From an uncultured Acidimicrobiales bacterium (GTDB taxonomy: Bacteria; Actinomycetota; Acidimicrobiia; Acidimicrobiales; SHLQ01): a stretch of 39,510 bases of DNA. The stretch covers positions 1 through 39,510 of the forward strand of contig CALHTB010000043.1 in the NCBI GenBank assembly GCA_938038785.1, given 5' to 3'. This document shows, in pieces, positions 9,566-27,981 of this stretch (its first letter is position 1; every line of letters starts with the position of its first letter). A program made the translations under genes and the position numbers. The notes beneath the pieces were generated by a model. That model searched no databases, had not been told where the DNA came from, and saw nothing but the letters and a program-made list of their open reading frames with translations.

Positions 9566-12439
9566 CTACAAGCTGACCCGGGCCAGAATTTCTGCGATCG
9601 CGTACGCCCTACGCAAGCCCCATTGGCTCTCGGGAACGTCGAGGACAGTCCAACCGAGCTCGTAAAGTTCGAGCCGTCGAATGAGCTGCTTTGGTGTGCC
9701 TGTTGGGTCAATCCGGGCGTCGATACCGATCGCTGCGGCCCCATCGCCGACAACCAGGTCCAACACGTGACGGCCAACCCGGTATCCCGTGCGCACTGTT
9801 GCTCCACCAACCCGAAGGTCGTCGGCCAGCAACTGCACCCACGCATCGTCGATCGGTTGATCAGCAGGAGGATCCGGCGGCATTGCAGCCGCCCGGAGGT
9901 AGTCCCCCATAAGGCCCTCCGGTGGTGTCTCGAACGAGGTGAGCACGATGTTCTCCGAACGAGCTCGGGTGATCATGACATTGAAGACGTTTGGGTCGTT
10001 CACAAACATGAGGGCGGCTCGGCTCGAGTTCGGCGACACCGCCAGCGACACGATCATCGTGTCGCGCTCTCCGCCCTGGAACGCGTCGACCGTCCCGATC
10101 TGGAGACCGAGCGACATCAATTCTTCTGACGAGTGGTTTGCCGTGAGTTGTTCGGTAATCGCTTCGGCGTGAGCGGGGAACGGGGTGATGACACCAAGCG
10201 TGCCGAGTTCGATGCCCGACTTGGCCAACTCGATGCGACGATTTACCGCGGCGACCACCGCTTGCAGTTCGCCACGGTTGACACCTCGTTTGTCTTGCTC
10301 ACCGCCACGAATGGTCAGCTCGGTGATGGCATCGATGCCTTCGTTCCTCGGGTGCCGGGTAGCTACGTCGACCTGACCGCCGTAGAAGCGGCGCGCCGGG
10401 AAGTCAATGATGTGGAGACGGCTTCGATAGTGCGTGCGAAGCGTGATCGGTGGAGCGATCGCAGCTGCGGCGTCAAAGACGCTGTTGACCCGAACATCGA
10501 ACCTCGCTCGTGTCGGGCCGTCCAAATGGAATCGGTCAGCGATGGCGTCGATGTCTGCGCCCGTTGCATGGGAGTTGTAGCGGGTCTGCTTCGGGTCGCC
10601 CACCACAACGGCCGATTTCGCTCGACCCAACGCCGGGGTTGCGCCAGGGAGTTCGATTTGCGACGCCTCGTCGAGGATGACCAAGTCGAAAAGGCCGGGA
10701 ACCGGCGGCAGGAACTCGTCGATCTCGTCGAGCGTGCCAAGCCAGATCGGTTCGGCGTTCAGCACCTGCGAGGCGTCAACTCGACCAAGGATCTCCCGGC
10801 GAGTGGCCGCCGAACTTCGCAGTGCCTGCGTGAGCAGATGCATTTGTTCGCGGTCGGTTGCGCGGACGCGGTTGGTGACCGTACTGATGGCTGACTCACC
10901 AATTACCTGACGGGCGTTTCGAAGAAGTTCGACCACCGATTCGAGAAGCTCGCCCGGAGGCATCCGCTCGTCGACCACACCGCTGAGTTGTCGCAGGTTG
11001 GCCATCTCGAGTGCGGTCATCGCCGTTTCGAGTTTCCCATCGACCGGTCGACATACTGCTATGAACGCAGCGATTGCTTGGCGGCGTCGAAGCGGGTTCC
11101 AGGCCTCAAGCTCGTTCCGCAGATCGAGGGCCTGTAGGCGGTTTTCGTCGCTCACTAAGCCCGGAGCGCGGCGGGCGATCTCGTCGAGCGTGTCGCCACG
11201 CGGGTCGGGGAACCAAGCATCGAACTGCCGCAGGGCTTTGGCGTGCGCATCGTTGAGTTCCTGCATTGCGAACCGGACCGCGGCGTCCCCCGGCACGTCA
11301 ACTTCGAAGGGGTCTTGCTTCACCGCAGCATGGTCGACCAGGCAACGCTCGAGACGTTCTGCCATTGCGTTTGCTGACTGGCCAACACCAAACACCACAG
11401 GATCTGGACCGGGCATATTCTCGAAGAACTCGCGCAACACGTCGAGTGCACGATGCGTCTTTGTTGCCAGCAATACGGTTCGGTCGATGCGCACGGCGTC
11501 GAGGGCAAGGGCGGCGACCGTTCGACTCTTGCCGGTGCCCGGAGCTCCGGTCACGGTGATCATCCGGCTGTACCGGGCAGTTTTGACGATGTGTTCCTGC
11601 TCGGCGTCGAGGCCGAGAACGGTCATGGGTAGCGGCCCGTCGCCAGGGGCGTTGGTGGAGAGGTTCGGGCTGAGGTCTGGCCGGATGAGCGTGGCGAGGG
11701 CCGTCCCGCTGGTGCTGGCCATATCGGCCCACGCTCGGATGCCTTCGACCGATGTTGCCGGCCCGTCGTCTTCGTCGAGGTAGATCCCATACCCCGGAAT
11801 GACCGACAGCCCGGCTTCGGTAATCACATCGAACGGGTTGATGTGCGCGTCGAGGATTCGGTCGGTCTTGAGGCCGAGCAGGTCAAGCGCTGACGCGATC
11901 CATTCCATCGTGCGCGTGTGCAATTCCGAACCGGGATCTACGTACAACGTGGGGGCGACAAGCGGAGCCGAGGCGAGCAATGCGTGCCGGTCGCCGACCT
12001 TGCGGATATGTGAGCTGACTTCGAGATCACCGGCTGGTGTGGCGAGCAGGTCCTTGCCGCGAGCACCTGCCGAGTACACCAGGTTGATACGACGGCGCAG
12101 CAGCGGAAAGCACACCGGCGTCGGAGGGGCATCGTCGTCGTGCTGGACCGACCCGACGACAAACAGGTGACCAATGTGAATGTTGCTGTCGCCAGGTTTG
12201 AGGCTGTCGGCGAGCGCCAACGCCTCGAGGTCAGCATCGGCGCTCAATTTCAGACCGCGAACGGTGGTTGCTCCTGGGTGCAGATCCGCGCTGATCAACC
12301 GAAGCCCCTCGGCGCCCATCCATGACAGATCGGCACGGGCATCGACGATCGACCCGAGGATTACCGGCTCGGGCGGAAGAAGCTCGCTAAGGAAGCGAAT
12401 GGTGTTCGGTATCGACGCCACCGACTCGTGTTGCACCAT
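9566..12439 (-). CDS. SF1 UPF1-like DNA/RNA helicase with C-terminal restriction-endonuclease-like domain
   Basis: A 957-residue protein. The first ~280 residues form an uncharacterised N-terminal domain. An SF1B (UPF1/DNA2/Nam7-like) helicase follows: Walker A VTGAPGTGKSRT (~296-307), Walker B LVILDEASQIELP, motif III VVVGDPKQTR, GTVDAFQGGERDTMIVS (V) and NVMITRARS (VI). The last ~85 residues look like an MTES_1575/Vsr-type nuclease fold (GYRVGRHVLDLVVG, then LELYELGWTVLDVPES). The usual acidic segment is altered to IGIDARIDP, so nuclease activity is doubtful. ATG 12439 is directly preceded by AAAGGAGGAG; GTG 12436 would give better spacing. Related helicase-nuclease proteins occur in defence islands, but no other defence gene is seen here. 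Confidence 0.82.
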   Translation of the reverse strand: MVQHESVASIPNTIRFLSELLPPEPVILGSIVDARADLSWMGAEGLRLISADLHPGATTVRGLKLSADADLEALALADSLKPGDSNIHIGHLFVVGSVQHDDDAPPTPVCFPLLRRRINLVYSAGARGKDLLATPAGDLEVSSHIRKVGDRHALLASAPLVAPTLYVDPGSELHTRTMEWIASALDLLGLKTDRILDAHINPFDVITEAGLSVIPGYGIYLDEDDGPATSVEGIRAWADMASTSGTALATLIRPDLSPNLSTNAPGDGPLPMTVLGLDAEQEHIVKTARYSRMITVTGAPGTGKSRTVAALALDAVRIDRTVLLATKTHRALDVLREFFENMPGPDPVVFGVGQSANAMAERLERCLVDHAAVKQDPFEVDVPGDAAVRFAMQELNDAHAKALRQFDAWFPDPRGDTLDEIARRAPGLVSDENRLQALDLRNELEAWNPLRRRQAIAAFIAVCRPVDGKLETAMTALEMANLRQLSGVVDERMPPGELLESVVELLRNARQVIGESAISTVTNRVRATDREQMHLLTQALRSSAATRREILGRVDASQVLNAEPIWLGTLDEIDEFLPPVPGLFDLVILDEASQIELPGATPALGRAKSAVVVGDPKQTRYNSHATGADIDAIADRFHLDGPTRARFDVRVNSVFDAAAAIAPPITLRTHYRSRLHIIDFPARRFYGGQVDVATRHPRNEGIDAITELTIRGGEQDKRGVNRGELQAVVAAVNRRIELAKSGIELGTLGVITPFPAHAEAITEQLTANHSSEELMSLGLQIGTVDAFQGGERDTMIVSLAVSPNSSRAALMFVNDPNVFNVMITRARSENIVLTSFETPPEGLMGDYLRAAAMPPDPPADQPIDDAWVQLLADDLRVGGATVRTGYRVGRHVLDLVVGDGAAAIGIDARIDPTGTPKQLIRRLELYELGWTVLDVPESQWGLRRAYAIAEILARVSL

Positions 12440-13726: not shown

Positions 13727-14761
13727 ATGAACGTCCGCCCCGCCGCCGTCAGGATCTCCTGGCTGGTCGGCGCGGCGGCGTTTGTGCTTTTGGCGGTGGT
13801 TCTGGCGGTCGCAGTAGGGCCAACTTCGATCGACCCGCTAGGCGTGCTCGCCGAGACCCTCGACGCCGCCCTACCAGGGGACTTCGATTCGGGGCTCAAC
13901 GAACGCGAAGTCACCATCGTACGAACACTCCGGCTCCCACGGGTCGTGCTCGGGTTGTTGGTCGGCGCGTCACTGGCAACGTCAGGGGCAGTGTTTCAGG
14001 GCGTGTTTCGGAACCCACTCGCCGACCCGTACCTCCTCGGTGTCGCGTCGGGCGGCGGGCTGGGAGCCACCATCGCGTTCGTCTACGACCTGGGCGATGG
14101 CAAGGGCCTGCTCGACATGGTCCAGATCTTTGCCTTTGTCGGCGCGCTGCTGGCGGTCGCCATGACCTGGGCCATGGGAGTACTGGGCGATCGCACCCGC
14201 GCCGCGACGTCATTGATCTTGGCCGGCGTGGCGGTGGCCAGCTTCTTTACGGCGATCCAAACGTTCTTGCAGCAGGCCTTCACCGAGGACATTCGCCAGG
14301 TGTACACCTGGTTTCTCGGAGGACTCGCGACGTCGGGATGGAGCGAGGTAAGCCAGCTCCTGCCGTTCTCCGTGATCTGCCTGGTCCTGCTTGTCGCATC
14401 GTGCCGCATGTTGGACGTCCTCGCGGTCGGCGATGAGGAAGCAACGATGCTCGGTATGCCGGTCGGACGTGTTCGGGTAGCACTTGCCGTATTGGCATCG
14501 CTGCTCACCGCAGCGGCAGTAGCAGTGAGCGGTCTCATCTCCTTCGTTGGGCTGATCATCCCGCACACCGTCCGTCTTCTCTTCGGGTCGAACTACCGGG
14601 TCATCGTTCCCCTGTCGATCTTCTTCGGTGCGGGCTTCTTGGTGCTGTGCGACCTTGCCGCACGAACCCTCCTCACCCCATCGGAGCTGCCGATCGGCGT
14701 CGTCACGGCATTCTTTGGCGCCCCGTTTTTCGTCGTCATCCTGCGGACGGCCAACCGATGA
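13727..14761 (+). CDS. btuC: Corrinoid ABC transporter permease (FecCD family)
   Basis: A 344-residue FecCD/BtuC-type permease with about ten membrane helices. Family motifs include LRLPRVVLGLLVGASLATSG, GAVFQGVFRNPLADPYLLGV and AVAVSGLISFVGLIIPHTVR. The cytoplasmic loop DEEATMLGMPVGRVR, just before the last helices, couples to BtuD. It forms the channel through which BtuF-delivered corrinoid is imported. It starts 33 nt after btuF and its stop overlaps the start of the ATPase gene (ATGA). No independent promoter is seen, so it should share the riboswitch-controlled message. Confidence 0.92.
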   Translation: MNVRPAAVRISWLVGAAAFVLLAVVLAVAVGPTSIDPLGVLAETLDAALPGDFDSGLNEREVTIVRTLRLPRVVLGLLVGASLATSGAVFQGVFRNPLADPYLLGVASGGGLGATIAFVYDLGDGKGLLDMVQIFAFVGALLAVAMTWAMGVLGDRTRAATSLILAGVAVASFFTAIQTFLQQAFTEDIRQVYTWFLGGLATSGWSEVSQLLPFSVICLVLLVASCRMLDVLAVGDEEATMLGMPVGRVRVALAVLASLLTAAAVAVSGLISFVGLIIPHTVRLLFGSNYRVIVPLSIFFGAGFLVLCDLAARTLLTPSELPIGVVTAFFGAPFFVVILRTANR

Positions 14762-16209
14762 GTGTCGCTGCCTCAAACCTTGGCGTCACCATCAAAGACG
14801 CAGCGTTACTGTCGAACGTGTCACTGACCGCCGCACCGGGCGAGTGGGTGTCGGTGATCGGACCAAACGGAGCAGGTAAGTCAACCTTGCTCCGAGTTCT
14901 CGCCGGAGTGCTGCCCCACGTGGGGTCGGTGACGATCAACGGTGCAGACGTTGCGGCGCTGCCACCGCGAGAGCGGGCGAAGCTCGTGTCGTGGGTTCCG
15001 CAGAGCCCCACGGTTCCTGTCGGGATGAGCGTCCTCGACTTTGTGTTGCTCGGCCGAACCCCACATCTTCACCCGCTGTCGTCGCCCAAGTCGAGCGACG
15101 TTGAACTCGGCCATCAAACGTTGGACATGCTCGACCTCACCACCTTTGCCGGACGTCGGGTTGACACGCTGTCGGGCGGCGAGCTCCAGCGAGTTGCTAT
15201 CGGTCGAGCGTTGGTGCAACAAGCGCCCGTCATGCTGCTCGACGAGCCAACCTCGGCGCTCGATCTCGGCCATCAGCAAGACGTGCTGACGCTTCTTGAC
15301 GAACTTCGCGGGAACGGCGAGCGCACCATCATTTCGACGATGCATGATCTCACGCTGGCTGGCCACTTCGCCGACCGCATACTCCTGCTTTCTAACGGCT
15401 CGGTTGCTGCGGACGGACCAGCAGCCACGGTCCTGACCGAAGCAAACATCTCAAAGCACTACCGCGCCAAGGTTCTCATTCGAAACGTTCAGGGAACCGT
15501 CGTAATCTCCCCGAGGATCGCCACGCCATCGTCATTCCATCTACCTGCGCACTTTCACCAGAAGTCGCCCGAGTTCGACCATCCCGAAGATCACAACCCA
15601 GACTCTCCAACCCACCAAGAAGGGCCCACAGCAATGAGCGAAAACAGCACCGAACCTCTCACCGAGAATCCAGCCGAGAACAAGTCGACCGTGGCCAAGT
15701 CACTCGTCGTAGTGAACACCGGCGATGGCAAGGGAAAGTCGAGCGCGGCGTTTGGCATCATGATCCGCGGCGTGGCTCGGGACTGGAACGTGGGCGTGGT
15801 GCAGTTCGTGAAGTCCGGCGACTGGAACGTGGGCGAAGAGAAGATTGGTCGTCAGCTCGGGGTTGACTGGCACAACGAGGGCCAAGGCTTCACCTGGAAC
15901 TCTGAAGACCTCGAGCAAGACAAGGCAATTGCCCAACAGGGTTGGGAAGTCGCTCGGGCCCTTATCGAGGCTGGCGAACATCAGCTACTCATTCTCGACG
16001 AGCTGACCTACCTCATCAACTGGGGATGGATCGACCCAGAGCCCGTGTACGAAACGATCAAGAACCGCCCCGAGCACGTGAGCATCGTCGTAACAGGCCG
16101 CGATGCGCCCGAAGGGCTCATCGAAGTTGCCGACACGGTGAGCGAAGTCGTCAAGGTGAAGCACCCGTTCGACAAGGGCATCGTCGCGAAGAAGGGAATC
16201 GACTACTGA
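14758..16209 (+). CDS. btuD-cobO: BtuD ATPase running in frame into CobO corrinoid adenosyltransferase
   Basis: One open frame of 483 codons joins two usually separate proteins. Residues 1-~255 are the corrinoid import ATPase: Walker A GPNGAGKSTL, signature TLSGGELQRVAIGRAL, Walker B MLLDEPTSALDL, H-loop STMHD. Residues ~256-292 are a His/Pro-rich link (HLPAHFHQKSPEFDHPEDH). Residues 293-483 are a CobO/BtuR-type ATP:corrinoid adenosyltransferase with P-loop NTGDGKGKSSAAFG, LLILDELTYLINWGW and a C-terminal VKHPFDKGIVAKKGIDY. No stop codon separates them. An internal ATG at 15634 with an upstream AAGAAGGG could also produce CobO alone. Import and adenosylation are consecutive steps, so a fusion makes sense. 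The stop overlaps the cobU start (TGATG). Confidence 0.85.
   Translation: MSVAASNLGVTIKDAALLSNVSLTAAPGEWVSVIGPNGAGKSTLLRVLAGVLPHVGSVTINGADVAALPPRERAKLVSWVPQSPTVPVGMSVLDFVLLGRTPHLHPLSSPKSSDVELGHQTLDMLDLTTFAGRRVDTLSGGELQRVAIGRALVQQAPVMLLDEPTSALDLGHQQDVLTLLDELRGNGERTIISTMHDLTLAGHFADRILLLSNGSVAADGPAATVLTEANISKHYRAKVLIRNVQGTVVISPRIATPSSFHLPAHFHQKSPEFDHPEDHNPDSPTHQEGPTAMSENSTEPLTENPAENKSTVAKSLVVVNTGDGKGKSSAAFGIMIRGVARDWNVGVVQFVKSGDWNVGEEKIGRQLGVDWHNEGQGFTWNSEDLEQDKAIAQQGWEVARALIEAGEHQLLILDELTYLINWGWIDPEPVYETIKNRPEHVSIVVTGRDAPEGLIEVADTVSEVVKVKHPFDKGIVAKKGIDY
15617..15636 (+). promoter_or_regulatory. Internal ribosome site and possible separate start of cobO
   Basis: AAGAAGGG (15617-15624) lies 9 nt before ATG 15634 (MSENSTEPL), in frame with the upstream btuD part. 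If used, CobO would be made as a free 191-residue protein, the normal family length, from the same message. Confidence 0.5.
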
Positions 16210-23484: not shown

Positions 23485-23555
23485 CCCACAACACCGGCAG
23501 GCGAACCTGCATTCGGGTGCCACCTGCGAGTGCGTCGCCAGCGGCTCGTTCGACC

Positions 23556-23561
23556 TACGAT
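23556..23561 (+). promoter_or_regulatory. -10 box of a leaderless promoter for the reductive-dehalogenase-like gene
   Basis: TACGAT ends 6 nt before GTG 23568. It decides the start; the frame is open far upstream, to 23214. Confidence 0.5.
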
Positions 23562-23567
23562 TCGATC

Positions 23568-24725
23568 GTGGCTGGCTCAAAAGGAATCAACGATCCGTTC
23601 ATCGTCGACGGTGACGCGTTCGAGCGCTTTAGCCAGGTCAACGACGTCTTTAGCCGCTCGATGTGGGACGAACGAGTCCGCGATGAGCGCAGCGACACCT
23701 TCTTTGCTACCTACCGACGGCCCCTGACGAAATGGCGCAAGGCCAACGGGTTCACCCAACGCGACTATGCGATTCGCAACGCCTCATGGCACGTGGCTGA
23801 CATCTTTGCCGAGATGTTCGAGGACGACGATCGTCGCGACGGTTTCCTCGACCCGCTCTCCATGCTCCGTGACGGCGCGAGCGAGCAAGTCGATGTTGGG
23901 CCACCCAACCAGGCCAGCCGAGAGCTCAAGCAGGTGTCGGAGGTCTTCGGCGCTGATCTCATCGGCATCACCGAGTTCGATGAACGATGGGTCTACACCG
24001 AGCGCTACAGCGCCACAGACAAAGCAGCGAAGCCGAACGACCTTCCCGACGGGCTTACCCACGTGGTGGTGATTGGCCAAGAGATGAACGACTCGCTCAT
24101 CAAGACGGCACCCTCGGCACTGTCGGGCACGGCAACTGGACTCGGCTACTCGATGGACTCGGCGGTGTTGCTCGGAATGGCGCAGTACATCCGCAACCTC
24201 GGCTATCAAGCCATCGCGTCGATGAACGACACTGCGCTTGCGATCCCGTTGGCCATGCAGGCTGGCCTGGGTGAGTACGGGCGTCATGGCCTGGTGATCA
24301 GCCCCGAGCTCGGCCCGCGCTTTCGAATCGGCAAGATCTTCACCGACATGCCGCTCGCCCCGGATGCACCGATCAACTTTGGTGTCGAAGCGTTCTGCAA
24401 CCAATGCGACCGTTGCGCCGACAAGTGCCCGGCAAAGGCCATCCCCCACGGCGAGCCCGACTGGCAGCCGGTCAACATCTCGAGCATCAAGGGTGTGAAG
24501 AAGTGGTCGGTCGATGGCGAGAAGTGCTTCAGCTATTGGTCAAAGATCAACAGCGACTGCGCCGTGTGTGTCCGGGTCTGCCCCTATACCCGTGACTACA
24601 GCAAGGCTCGAAACCGGGCGTGGCGATGGCTTGCAGGAACACGACTTCGTGGGCTGGCCATGAAAATCCACGACGCCACCGGCGGCAGCGACCGCCTCAA
24701 GTCAAACGACTGGTGGACGGGCTAG
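23568..24725 (+). CDS. Reductive dehalogenase-like (RdhA/QueG-type) iron-sulfur protein
   Basis: A 385-residue protein related to corrinoid-dependent reductive dehalogenases and epoxyqueuosine reductase. The C-terminal half holds one full 4Fe-4S motif (CNQCDRCADKCPAKAIPHGEP) and a second incomplete one (CAVCVRVCPYTRD) whose fourth ligand is probably the Cys in GEKCFSYW, the usual RdhA arrangement. The middle (VVVIGQEMNDSLIKTAPSA to GEYGRHGLVISPELGPRFRIG) is the cobalamin-binding domain. There is no Tat signal, so it should be cytoplasmic, unlike respiratory RdhA. Start GTG 23568 is set by the -10 box. It may use the cobalamin made or imported by the nearby genes; the substrate is unknown. Confidence 0.82.
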   Translation: MAGSKGINDPFIVDGDAFERFSQVNDVFSRSMWDERVRDERSDTFFATYRRPLTKWRKANGFTQRDYAIRNASWHVADIFAEMFEDDDRRDGFLDPLSMLRDGASEQVDVGPPNQASRELKQVSEVFGADLIGITEFDERWVYTERYSATDKAAKPNDLPDGLTHVVVIGQEMNDSLIKTAPSALSGTATGLGYSMDSAVLLGMAQYIRNLGYQAIASMNDTALAIPLAMQAGLGEYGRHGLVISPELGPRFRIGKIFTDMPLAPDAPINFGVEAFCNQCDRCADKCPAKAIPHGEPDWQPVNISSIKGVKKWSVDGEKCFSYWSKINSDCAVCVRVCPYTRDYSKARNRAWRWLAGTRLRGLAMKIHDATGGSDRLKSNDWWTG

Positions 24726-24756: not shown

Positions 24757-26007
24757 CTACGCCCGCGAAGTTGCGATCCGAAGGATCTCGTCGATGTCGA
24801 GTTGGTCTTCGAGCTGGGCTGCCCACGCGTCGAGCGCTAGGTCAACACGTTCGTTGTACTGCACCGAGCTGCTCACGCGCCCAGGACGTAGCTCGGCCAG
24901 GTACGCCTGACGAAACGCATCGCTTGAGAACACGCCGTGGACATAGCTGCCGACGATTCGACCATCGGACGAGGTTGCTCCGCTGGCCGCACCGTCGATG
25001 TGAAGCCATGGGCGCTTGGTGTCAGGCCCGTCGGTCCGGCCCACGTGGATCTCGTAGCCCGCTACCTCTTGTCCGGAAGCGGCGTGCGTTCCGGTGACAG
25101 GGCGAGTGACTTTGTCAGCGTGCAGCGTCGTGGCCACATCGAGCAGACCCAAGCCAGCCACCTCTGCGGCCGGCCCCTCGATGCCTTCGGGGTCGGCGAT
25201 TGCCGAGCCGAGCAGTTGGTAGCCGCCACAGATACCAACAATGCGACCACCCCGACGCACGTGCGCCGCAATGTCGAGATCCCAACCTTGGGATCGAAGA
25301 AACTCCATGTCGGCGAGGGTGGCTTTGGTGCCAGGGATCAGAATCACGTCGGCCACAGGCAAGGGCTGGCCTGGAGGAACCATGGTGACGGTGACGTCGT
25401 CTTCCAAGCTCAACGGGTCGACGTCGTCGAAGTTGGCAATGCGGCTGAGCATGGGAACGACAATGTGGATGTCGCCGTCGCCGCCACGGCGTTCGCCGAG
25501 TTCGACCGCGTCTTCGGCTGGCAGCACCGCAAGGTCGTGTGACCAGGTCACCACACCCATCGACGGCCAACCCGTGCGGGTCGCGATGTCATCGAGCCCA
25601 GCATCGAAGAGGGCAACGTTGCCCCGGAATTTGTTGATGAGGAACCCGTGGATCATCGACCGGTCGGCATCGTCGAGCACAACATGGGTTCCGACAAGCG
25701 AGGCGATCACTCCACCGCGGTCGATGTCGCCGGCAAGTATGACGGGGACATCGGCGGCCAAGGCGAAGCCCATGTTCGCGATGTCGCCAGTGCGAAGATT
25801 CGTTTCAGCCGGGCTTCCAGCGCCCTCGACTATGCACACGTCGGCGTCGGCACCGATGCGCGCAATATCAGCCTCCATGCCGGCGCCAGCGAGCGTGCGC
25901 TCAACCATTGCGGCGATTGCCTCATCGTCTTCGACGATCAATACGCGGGAACTGATGGCCTCAAGTGTGGCATTGCTTTGGGCGATTTCGGCGTGCATGG
26001 GTTCCAT
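24757..26007 (-). CDS. Chimeric CobQ paralogue: response-regulator N terminus fused to CobQ C-terminal two thirds
   Basis: A 416-residue protein. Residues ~52-416 are nearly the same as residues 124-489 of the complete CobQ at 26512-27981 (GADADVCIVEGAGSPAETN to the end), including the amidotransferase Cys in GICGGYQLLG and His in YVHGVF. The first 123 CobQ residues, with the ATP site GTNSNAGKS, are absent. In their place stand 51 residues that look like the start of a receiver domain (RVLIVEDDEAIAAMVERTLA, then GAGMEADIA), with its acidic Asp pair. The phosphoacceptor part of the receiver is not there. It probably cannot make cobyric acid by itself; it could bind glutamine or regulate, or be a decaying copy. 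The frame is fully intact. Confidence 0.85.
   Translation of the reverse strand: MEPMHAEIAQSNATLEAISSRVLIVEDDEAIAAMVERTLAGAGMEADIARIGADADVCIVEGAGSPAETNLRTGDIANMGFALAADVPVILAGDIDRGGVIASLVGTHVVLDDADRSMIHGFLINKFRGNVALFDAGLDDIATRTGWPSMGVVTWSHDLAVLPAEDAVELGERRGGDGDIHIVVPMLSRIANFDDVDPLSLEDDVTVTMVPPGQPLPVADVILIPGTKATLADMEFLRSQGWDLDIAAHVRRGGRIVGICGGYQLLGSAIADPEGIEGPAAEVAGLGLLDVATTLHADKVTRPVTGTHAASGQEVAGYEIHVGRTDGPDTKRPWLHIDGAASGATSSDGRIVGSYVHGVFSSDAFRQAYLAELRPGRVSSSVQYNERVDLALDAWAAQLEDQLDIDEILRIATSRA
24760..25854 (-). repeat. cobQ duplication, copy A (in the chimeric gene)
   Basis: This segment aligns end to end with 26515-27612. Similarity stops abruptly at the GADAD codons near 25855, which marks the fusion point. 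A 112-nt stretch, 25295-25406, is identical to 27053-27164. Confidence 0.9.
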
Positions 26008-26056
26008 CAAATCAGAACCGACCTGAGAGCCGTCTAAGCGAATGCCAGCTGATGGG

Positions 26057-26449
26057 CTAGCCAGCCAACAGGTTCATAGCCTTGGTTAGAGCGATCGCTC
26101 CCATCCAAAGACCCATCGCAATCGCTGCTACTTCGTCGTTGCGACGCGCCCCAATAAGGCCAGCGATGACGAAATCAGGAATGGCCACCGCACGGACGAG
26201 GGCGAGGTGGAGGTCATCGGGCAGTAACCCCAAAATTGGATTGGCCCGGACCAGTCCAAGGAACTCCGACGGCCTGACAATTGCAGTGATCCCGTTCACG
26301 ATAAACAGCGAAGCCAGACCGATTCGAACGATGATGGACAGGTGGGGCGTCGATCTCCTCGTCGGACGACTAGCGCGCAGCGGTGCGGGTGCATCGGCAA
26401 GAAAGATGCCGTAGTCCTCGTGCCTCTCCACTTCCTGGCTGTCGTTCAT
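26057..26449 (-). CDS. Small membrane protein, DoxX-like
   Basis: A 130-residue protein lying between the two cobQ genes on the same strand. After ~40 polar residues there are four hydrophobic stretches (IIVRIGLASLFIVNGITAIV, GLVRANPILGLLPDDLHLA, AVAIPDFVIAGLIGA, VAAIAMGLWMGAIALTKAM). The RIGLASLFIVNGI segment resembles DoxX-type proteins, but the match is loose. I chose ATG 26449 because GGGAGA lies just upstream; the longer frame from 26488 has no ribosome site. No known role in B12 metabolism. It may have been carried along by, or inserted during, the cobQ duplication. Confidence 0.68.
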   Translation of the reverse strand: MNDSQEVERHEDYGIFLADAPAPLRASRPTRRSTPHLSIIVRIGLASLFIVNGITAIVRPSEFLGLVRANPILGLLPDDLHLALVRAVAIPDFVIAGLIGARRNDEVAAIAMGLWMGAIALTKAMNLLAG

Positions 26450-26511
26450 ACTTTCTCCCAACCGAGAACCACCGTAGAGCAGCGACACAGATTCGCAAAA
26501 GTGATTCCTCG

Positions 26512-27981
26512 CTACAGGCGGCGGGCCGCAATTCGAAGTAGCTGGTCGACATCAAGCTGTTCTTCAAGCTGGTTCGCCCACAGGTCGAGTGCGACGTCGA
26601 CGCGTTCGTCATAGCGAACCGAGCTGCTGACGCGCCCTGGGCGCAGCTCGGCTAGGTATGCCTGGCGAAACGCGTCACTAGCGAAGACGCCGTGCACGTA
26701 GGTGCCGACGATGCGGCCATCGGACGAGGTTGCCCCACTGGCCGCACCATCGATGCTCAGCCATGGGCGCCCGGTGCTGCCGGGTCCGTCGGTTCGCCCG
26801 ACGTGAATCTCGTAGCCAGAGAACCCGTGTCCGGATGCAAGATGGGTTCCGGTAACCGGGCGAGTGACCTTGTCGGCGTGAAGCGTTGTGGCCACATCGA
26901 GAAGGGCCAGGCCAGGCACTTCAACAGCTAACCCCTCGACGCCGTCGGGATCGGCGATTGTCGATCCGAGCAGTTGGTAGCCGCCACAGATGCCGACGAC
27001 CCGTCCGCCCCGGCGAACGTGTGCCTGAATGTCGAGATCCCATCCTTGGGAGCGAAGAAACTCCATGTCGGCGAGGGTGGCTTTGGTGCCAGGGATCAGA
27101 ATCACGTCGGCCACAGGCAAGGGCTGGCCTGGAGGAACCATGGTGACGGTGACGTCGTCTTCCATGCGCAACGGATCAACATCGTCAAAGTTTGCGATTC
27201 GGCTGAGCATCGGCACGGCGATGTGGATGTCACCGGACTCGGTTTGGCGTTCGCCGAGCTCAACAGCATCCTCGGCCGGCAAGACAGCAAGGTCGTGTGA
27301 CCAGGTGACGACGCCCATCGATGGCCATTGCGTTCGTGTGGTGATGTCATCGAGCCCGGCATCGAAAAGCGCCACGTTGCCGCGGAACTTGTTGATGAGG
27401 AACCCGTGGATCATCGACCGGTCGGCGTCGTCGAGCACGACATGTGTTCCGACCAGGGACGCGATCACCCCACCGCGGTCAATGTCGCCTGCGAGCACGA
27501 CGGGGACATCGGCGGCCAGCGCAAACCCCATGTTGGCGATGTCGCCTGCGCGAAGGTTCGTTTCGGCCGGGCTTCCGGCGCCCTCGACGATACAGATGTC
27601 GGCGTCGGCGCCGAGTAGCTCGAAGCTGTCGAGCACCGGTTCGAGCAACGAGGCACGGTCGGTCGTGAAGCATTCGGCCTCGAGCGTGCCCACCGGGTGA
27701 CCGTGCACCACGATCTGTGCTCGGGTGTTCGACTCGGGCTTCAAGAGAACCGGGTTGTGATGCACCGAGAGCGGCACCCGAGCGGCCAGTGCTTGGAGCG
27801 CCTGAGCTCGACCTATCTCGCCGCCACCCTCGACGGCGGCCGCGTTGTTCGACATGTTCTGCGGCTTGAACGGCTGCACCGACAAGCCTCTATTCGCGGC
27901 TGCCCTGCAGAGGCCGGCGACCAGTACCGACTTACCCGCGTTCGAATTGGTCCCTTGGATCATCAGCGCAGGCGTCGACAC
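26512..27981 (-). CDS. cobQ: Cobyric acid synthase (complete copy)
   Basis: A 489-residue CobQ/CbiP, which amidates four side chains of adenosylcobyrinic acid a,c-diamide with glutamine and ATP. The N-terminal dethiobiotin-synthetase-like domain has the P-loop MIQGTNSNAGKSVLVAGL and the family motif PFKPQNMSNNAAAV. The C-terminal class I amidotransferase has Cys332 (GICGGYQLLG) and His430 (YVHGVF). GTG 27981 is 6 nt after a TAGACT -10 box that contains the stop codon of the upstream gene. It is a de novo pathway enzyme, so the organism probably makes corrin as well as importing it. It is the likely parent of the chimeric paralogue. Confidence 0.95.
   Translation of the reverse strand: MSTPALMIQGTNSNAGKSVLVAGLCRAAANRGLSVQPFKPQNMSNNAAAVEGGGEIGRAQALQALAARVPLSVHHNPVLLKPESNTRAQIVVHGHPVGTLEAECFTTDRASLLEPVLDSFELLGADADICIVEGAGSPAETNLRAGDIANMGFALAADVPVVLAGDIDRGGVIASLVGTHVVLDDADRSMIHGFLINKFRGNVALFDAGLDDITTRTQWPSMGVVTWSHDLAVLPAEDAVELGERQTESGDIHIAVPMLSRIANFDDVDPLRMEDDVTVTMVPPGQPLPVADVILIPGTKATLADMEFLRSQGWDLDIQAHVRRGGRVVGICGGYQLLGSTIADPDGVEGLAVEVPGLALLDVATTLHADKVTRPVTGTHLASGHGFSGYEIHVGRTDGPGSTGRPWLSIDGAASGATSSDGRIVGTYVHGVFASDAFRQAYLAELRPGRVSSSVRYDERVDVALDLWANQLEEQLDVDQLLRIAARRL
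26515..27612 (-). repeat. cobQ duplication, copy B (in the complete gene)
   Basis: This is the counterpart of 24760-25854. Differences are scattered and many are at third codon positions, except in the identical 112-nt tract at 27053-27164. Confidence 0.9.

Follow-up and report, generated by a model that had tools for sequence, protein, structure and literature searches.

An in-frame fusion of a response-regulator gene fragment to a P-loop-less CobQ paralogue in an uncultured Acidimicrobiales bacterium

Cobyric acid synthase (CobQ/CbiP; NF001989, TIGR00313) adds four amides using glutamine and ATP, according to PMC7242693. The glutamine amidotransferase (GATase) domains of the CobB/CobQ family use a Cys-His dyad, and GatD of the MurT/GatD pair is a glutaminase of the CobB/CobQ type that has no synthetase part itself (both as described in PMC5871853). 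In the window, by which we mean the whole 39,510-nucleotide stretch of DNA analyzed here, we find a chimeric gene whose product resembles each of these, and also OmpR-type response regulators, in part only. 365 of its residues are 88% identical to the neighboring CobQ and keep the GATase Cys and His, but regulator residues replace the first 122 residues, which hold the P-loop. As in GatD, a glutaminase domain (GATase_3) is present, apparently with no functional synthetase part attached to it, because the P-loop is lost; however, the GatD chains in the structures listed have 239-256 residues, work with MurT as partner and are only about 18% identical to the chimera. Finally, residues 1-52 derive from an OmpR-type regulator, of which about 187 of 239 residues have been lost, the phospho-acceptor and the DNA-binding domain included. 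Literature searches recovered no paper on CobQ fused to a response regulator or receiver domain and nothing on the combination of response regulator, receiver domain, amidotransferase domain and cobalamin; among the matches listed there was likewise no paper on a truncated, P-loop-less cobyric acid synthase paralogue and, for fusion or duplication, nothing on such a chimera.

The regulator-CobQ fusion is real and unusual: it forms a single uninterrupted frame in which regulator residues 1-52 are followed by CobQ-derived residues 52-416 (Table 1). In a local alignment the latter match residues 123-488 of the complete CobQ encoded upstream (83% nucleotide identity over 1087 columns), in agreement with the earlier note, which had placed the onset of CobQ similarity at residue 52. 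That note had described the ATP-binding domain as replaced; this holds for its first 122 residues, the P-loop part, and the rest of the domain remains. Thus, the Pfam CbiA match of the chimera begins only at position 53 of the 125-position profile, whereas that of the full copy begins at position 1, confirming the proposed loss of the P-loop, which the full CobQ has. GATase_3 was recovered at 184.6 bits (cut-off 27) over residues 183-365, and the Cys and His that had been noted as retained are indeed C261 and H358, both in columns invariant among 35 sequences and assigned their role by homology to GatD. Because one NCBIfam CobQ model exceeds its cut-off (NF001989, 416.4 bits against 273), automatic annotation may misname the chimera as cobyric acid synthase; the other, TIGR00313, scores it at 298.9, under its cut-off of 309.9.

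Table 1. Positions of the fusion gene, its parts and neighboring features in the window
Feature	Coordinates	Strand	Details
ABC transporter ATPase fused to CobA/CobO-type corrinoid adenosyltransferase	14647..16209	+	520-aa frame
Convergent reductive-dehalogenase-like (RDH-like) gene, start putative	23553..24725	+	TIGR02486 193 bits, cut-off 160
Fusion ORF	24757..26010	-	417 aa from TTG; 416 aa from ATG at 26007
CobQ part: remainder of CbiA domain and entire GATase_3 domain (C261, H358)	24760..25856	-	
Tract of 112 nt identical to full cobQ	25295..25406	-	
Junction, at most two to four shared bases	25854..25858	-	similarity blocks abut at 25857/25856
5' end of response-regulator gene plus ~35 bp upstream; codes residues 1-52	25857..26045	-	match to regulator of sister species G006
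Small ORF between cobQ copies, sub-threshold MauE match	26057..26488	-	PF07291 22.2 bits, cut-off 27
Complete cobQ	26512..27981	-	489 aa, with P-loop

The window as a whole is a corrinoid neighborhood containing genes for a periplasmic binding protein (PF01497) and a permease, along with cobT, cobS, cobQ and the RDH-like gene. The best NCBIfam match of the permease is BtuC, below its cut-off, and the ATPase-adenosyltransferase fusion lies near the binding protein and this BtuC-like permease. The RDH-like gene, a putative corrinoid enzyme, had also been considered as QueG, an identity that was set aside, the QueG model being below and the reductive dehalogenase model above cut-off (NCBIfam); relatives of it occupy the same place in G006 and, in G010, lie some 3.7 kb away from cobQ. 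The CobB model NF002204 was above cut-off in none of the 11 genomes of the genus, although the product of CobB is the substrate of CobQ; of 14 control genomes, just 8 exceeded the cut-off. The MauE-like ORF was present in one of 30 genomes searched, the source genome itself. The C-terminal part of the full cobQ is 50-63% identical to the best 80 loci listed, mostly Alphaproteobacteria by title (near kin may be left out), and at most 59% identical over part of the length, or 54% over the full length, to the class sample outside the source genome; horizontal transfer is possible.

The earlier note had read the N terminus as receiver-like. The 53-residue stub alone gave no Pfam match, even at an E-value of 10, and its identity therefore rests on G006, a different species of the same genus, located as the source of the stub by searching 59 genomes (the source genome and 58 relatives). 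Chimera residues 1-56 are 75% identical to the 239-residue regulator of this sister species, a full OmpR-type protein (Response_reg 94.7 bits, Trans_reg_C 74.5 bits; Pfam), so that the receiver-like reading stands, though by way of this relative and not of a direct profile match. At the DNA level positions 26045-25857 match the intact G006 gene (79%, E-value 1e-41); this match ends at the junction and similarity to CobQ DNA begins at the very next base, bearing out the abrupt onset that had been proposed. The stub holds about 30 of 111 receiver positions, leaving the domain incomplete. It retains the acidic residues and the first beta-alpha-beta unit, but the residue that we take from the receiver motif to be the phospho-acceptor Asp, D71 in the regulator of G006, falls beyond the junction and is absent from the chimera, and the DNA-binding domain is gone. 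Compared with the regulator of G006, residues 22-51 show four mild changes (I/V, D/E, T/A and L/M) and the leader, residues 1-21, shows six; with an omega of 0.13 over 53 codons the stub looks freshly cut. A promoter scan found none, and the single terminator-like site upstream of the fusion ORF is exceeded in number by those in shuffled sequences.

Examination of gene order in G006 revealed an enoyl-CoA hydratase gene, an acetyltransferase-like gene, a DUF2277 region, a histidine kinase and the response regulator, followed by the RDH-like gene, the gene of a small protein that looks secreted and a single complete cobQ (we assigned the labels acetyltransferase and secreted by our own reading). 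The window has the RDH-like gene immediately after DUF2277 (PF10041), and the kinase-regulator pair is missing at that place. The full cobQ copy shares its upstream side with G006 (81% over 4.2 kb); the chimera lies towards the RDH-like gene. Positions 23526 and 26045 of the window correspond to positions 11992 and 11999 of L032; two breakpoints thus fall in one short intergenic region between regulator and RDH-like gene, and a simple deletion model leaves both unexplained. The source genome (73% complete) yielded no second copy of the stub; among its other regulators the best-scoring one shares 47% identity with that of G006, and no cognate kinase was found in it, the kinases listed being at most 39% identical to the G006 one.

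We compared the two CobQ copies with each other and with G006. Over 363 codons dS is 0.74 and dN 0.072; without the 112-nt identical tract, dS is 0.883, dN 0.079 and omega 0.09 (325 codons). The sister species lies at a dS of 0.98 from the chimera and 1.18 from the full copy, and the paralogues group together with 96% bootstrap (77% and 71% in trees of the halves). The cobQ duplication is, as judged from these distances, old, and its copies have evidently been under purifying selection. Among 84 columns at least 97% identical in 33 distant CobQs, the chimera keeps 83, including parts of the ATP domain expected to matter little without the P-loop; its single departure is common to the full copy, with the same change, and the latter likewise keeps 83 of 84. 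Given the dS of 0.88, the omega and these conserved positions, the CobQ part would have been functional until recently, if it is not so still, and the relaxed selection that the earlier note had considered was not found. Both parent genes appear to have remained in use until not long before they were fused. We also saw no sign of a complementary degeneration leaving glutaminase function to the chimera and synthetase function to the full copy, both keeping 83 of 84. With states judged against G006, the 43 differing positions comprise 13 at which the chimera is derived, 19 at which the full copy is (an insertion accounts for two of them) and 11 unresolved. Between the copies dN is 0.053 in the remaining ATP-domain part and 0.097 in the glutaminase part. 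The halves are discordant in dS: in the ATP-domain part the chimera is closer to the full copy than to G006 (0.79 vs 1.44), and in the GATase part closer to G006 than to the full copy (0.79 vs 0.945), possibly reflecting conversion or unequal rates.

In neutral simulations none of 2000 frames stayed open at 0.44 substitutions per site, half of the inter-copy dS, against 601 at 0.05, 202 at 0.1 and 35 at 0.2, excluding neutral drift since the duplication; short neutral spells remain compatible. The 84 conserved codons offer about 185 nonsynonymous sites, and because no loss at them is specific to the chimera, either the truncation should be recent or the protein still constrained. We infer that unconstrained divergence of the chimera is at most about 0.016 per site (3/185), some 4% of the per-lineage dS of 0.44, a bound that gene conversion from the full copy would relax. 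Recent gene conversion is probable for the 112-nt tract, since none of 5000 codon shuffles reached it and the copies are about 80% identical elsewhere.

This tract also bears on whether the junction might be an assembly or amplification artefact, or the contig a merger of two strains. The genome is a draft of 134 contigs, 73% complete, the fusion is seen in a single assembly, and the cobQ copies have diverged to the level of species; yet the identical tract suggests that both copies were common to one cell, two direct copies on one contig would permit a single linear order, and the few shared bases at the junction are insufficient for an assembler to join contigs by overlap. We consequently hold an artefact to be improbable.

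A match running from the stub into CobQ was found only in the window itself, among the 59 genomes above, 11 of the genus and 296 of the class (overlapping sets, each including the source genome), and the same fusion, which the earlier note had proposed to look for in relatives, is thus absent from all related genomes searched. In the class search, which scored up to six candidates per genome, 49 of 296 genomes, the source included, matched at 1e-20. Three candidates were rejected as fusions: the match in G257 begins at query residue 27 yet extends only over 27-171 in a 548-residue frame, G014 covers only 28-141 in a 1052-residue frame, and the match in G234 is split in two pieces. For 78 of 80 distant loci listed, the frame also carries a P-loop-like pattern further upstream; of the others, L049 has a P-loop variant, read by eye, and the open frame of L080 starts past the P-loop.

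We favor, with a probability of roughly 0.52, an old cobQ duplication followed by a recent in-frame deletion, whose product would most likely be a loss-of-function fusion. The ancestral locus would have carried two complete cobQ genes flanking a histidine kinase-response regulator pair, in the order RDH-like gene, cobQ, kinase, regulator, MauE-like ORF, cobQ. Regulator and cobQ could then have been joined by a deletion where a few bases happened to match, taking cobQ codons 1-122, the kinase and the regulator past about codon 52 (roughly 2.3 kb, estimated from 366 bp of cobQ plus the kinase and the 3' part of the regulator at their G006 lengths) and leaving, by chance, a single frame open from the start codon of the regulator. 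The glutaminase domain of the fusion may still fold, and the adjacent complete CobQ would perform corrinoid amidation. Of three proposals made in the earlier note, that of a young pseudogene with an open frame comes closest: the truncation is probably young, but the copy itself is old. Two full cobQ genes around a regulator pair were seen in no genome searched, and to reach this arrangement from that of G006, a tandem duplication with reciprocal losses would be required. The perfectly open frame and the fewer derived changes in the chimera than in the full copy also count against a recent deletion, as do the discordant dS of the halves and the paired breakpoints next to the RDH-like gene.

The same two features, together with the low omega between the copies, the unbroken conserved positions, Cys and His, and the constraint on the stub, would be expected if instead a single tandem duplication, with ends in regulator and cobQ, had made fusion and duplication equal in age, and if selection had kept the product, either for ATP-independent glutaminase activity or to pair with CobQ or another synthetase, in the manner of GatD with MurT. 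The top PDB fold matches of the chimera model are GatD chains, at the identity given above. Such a history appears somewhat unlikely to us, for the ATP-domain part, unneeded in a glutaminase-only role, is conserved at least as well as the glutaminase part, residues 1-49 and 65-76 have pLDDT below 50 in the AlphaFold2 model, and the fusion is absent from every other genome searched. A later deletion fits the full conservation of the ATP domain better than the one-step model, because relaxed constraint on that domain would be expected in a protein serving as glutaminase alone.

The structure model gives block mean pLDDT values of 88-98 for residues 201-370; the low values at 1-49 are weak evidence, the alignment having contained no regulator sequences, and no hybrid sheet was seen at the N terminus. 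Having lost the P-loop, the chimera should not activate corrinoid carboxylates, and its sequence predicts that it cannot bind ATP via a P-loop, be phosphorylated as a receiver or bind DNA as a regulator; residual or partner-dependent glutaminase activity is possible, as is the inactive, CobQ-modulating partner suggested in the earlier note. That a CobQ-derived protein exchanged its P-loop unit for the receiver beta-alpha-beta and was selected as an ATP-free glutaminase or regulatory subunit tuning corrinoid amidation by the neighboring CobQ strikes us as very doubtful. A sensor of glutamine or corrinoid, as the earlier note had suggested, or one controlled by phosphorylation or ligand and built from receiver and CobQ parts, is extremely unlikely: the retained beta-alpha-beta unit and acidic residues would suit it, but the fragment stops before the phospho-acceptor Asp, the DNA-binding domain is missing, no cognate kinase was found in the source genome and, as a weak point for the reason just given, the stub has low pLDDT. 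The protein is probably not a new sensor class.

If the chimera is kept by selection, it would show how a two-domain amidotransferase can shrink to a stand-alone, GatD-like glutaminase. If, as we favor, it is the product of a recent deletion, it would represent a traceable fusion of unrelated parents, one of which survives unbroken in a sister species, and would caution that family profiles can call such a protein cobyric acid synthase.
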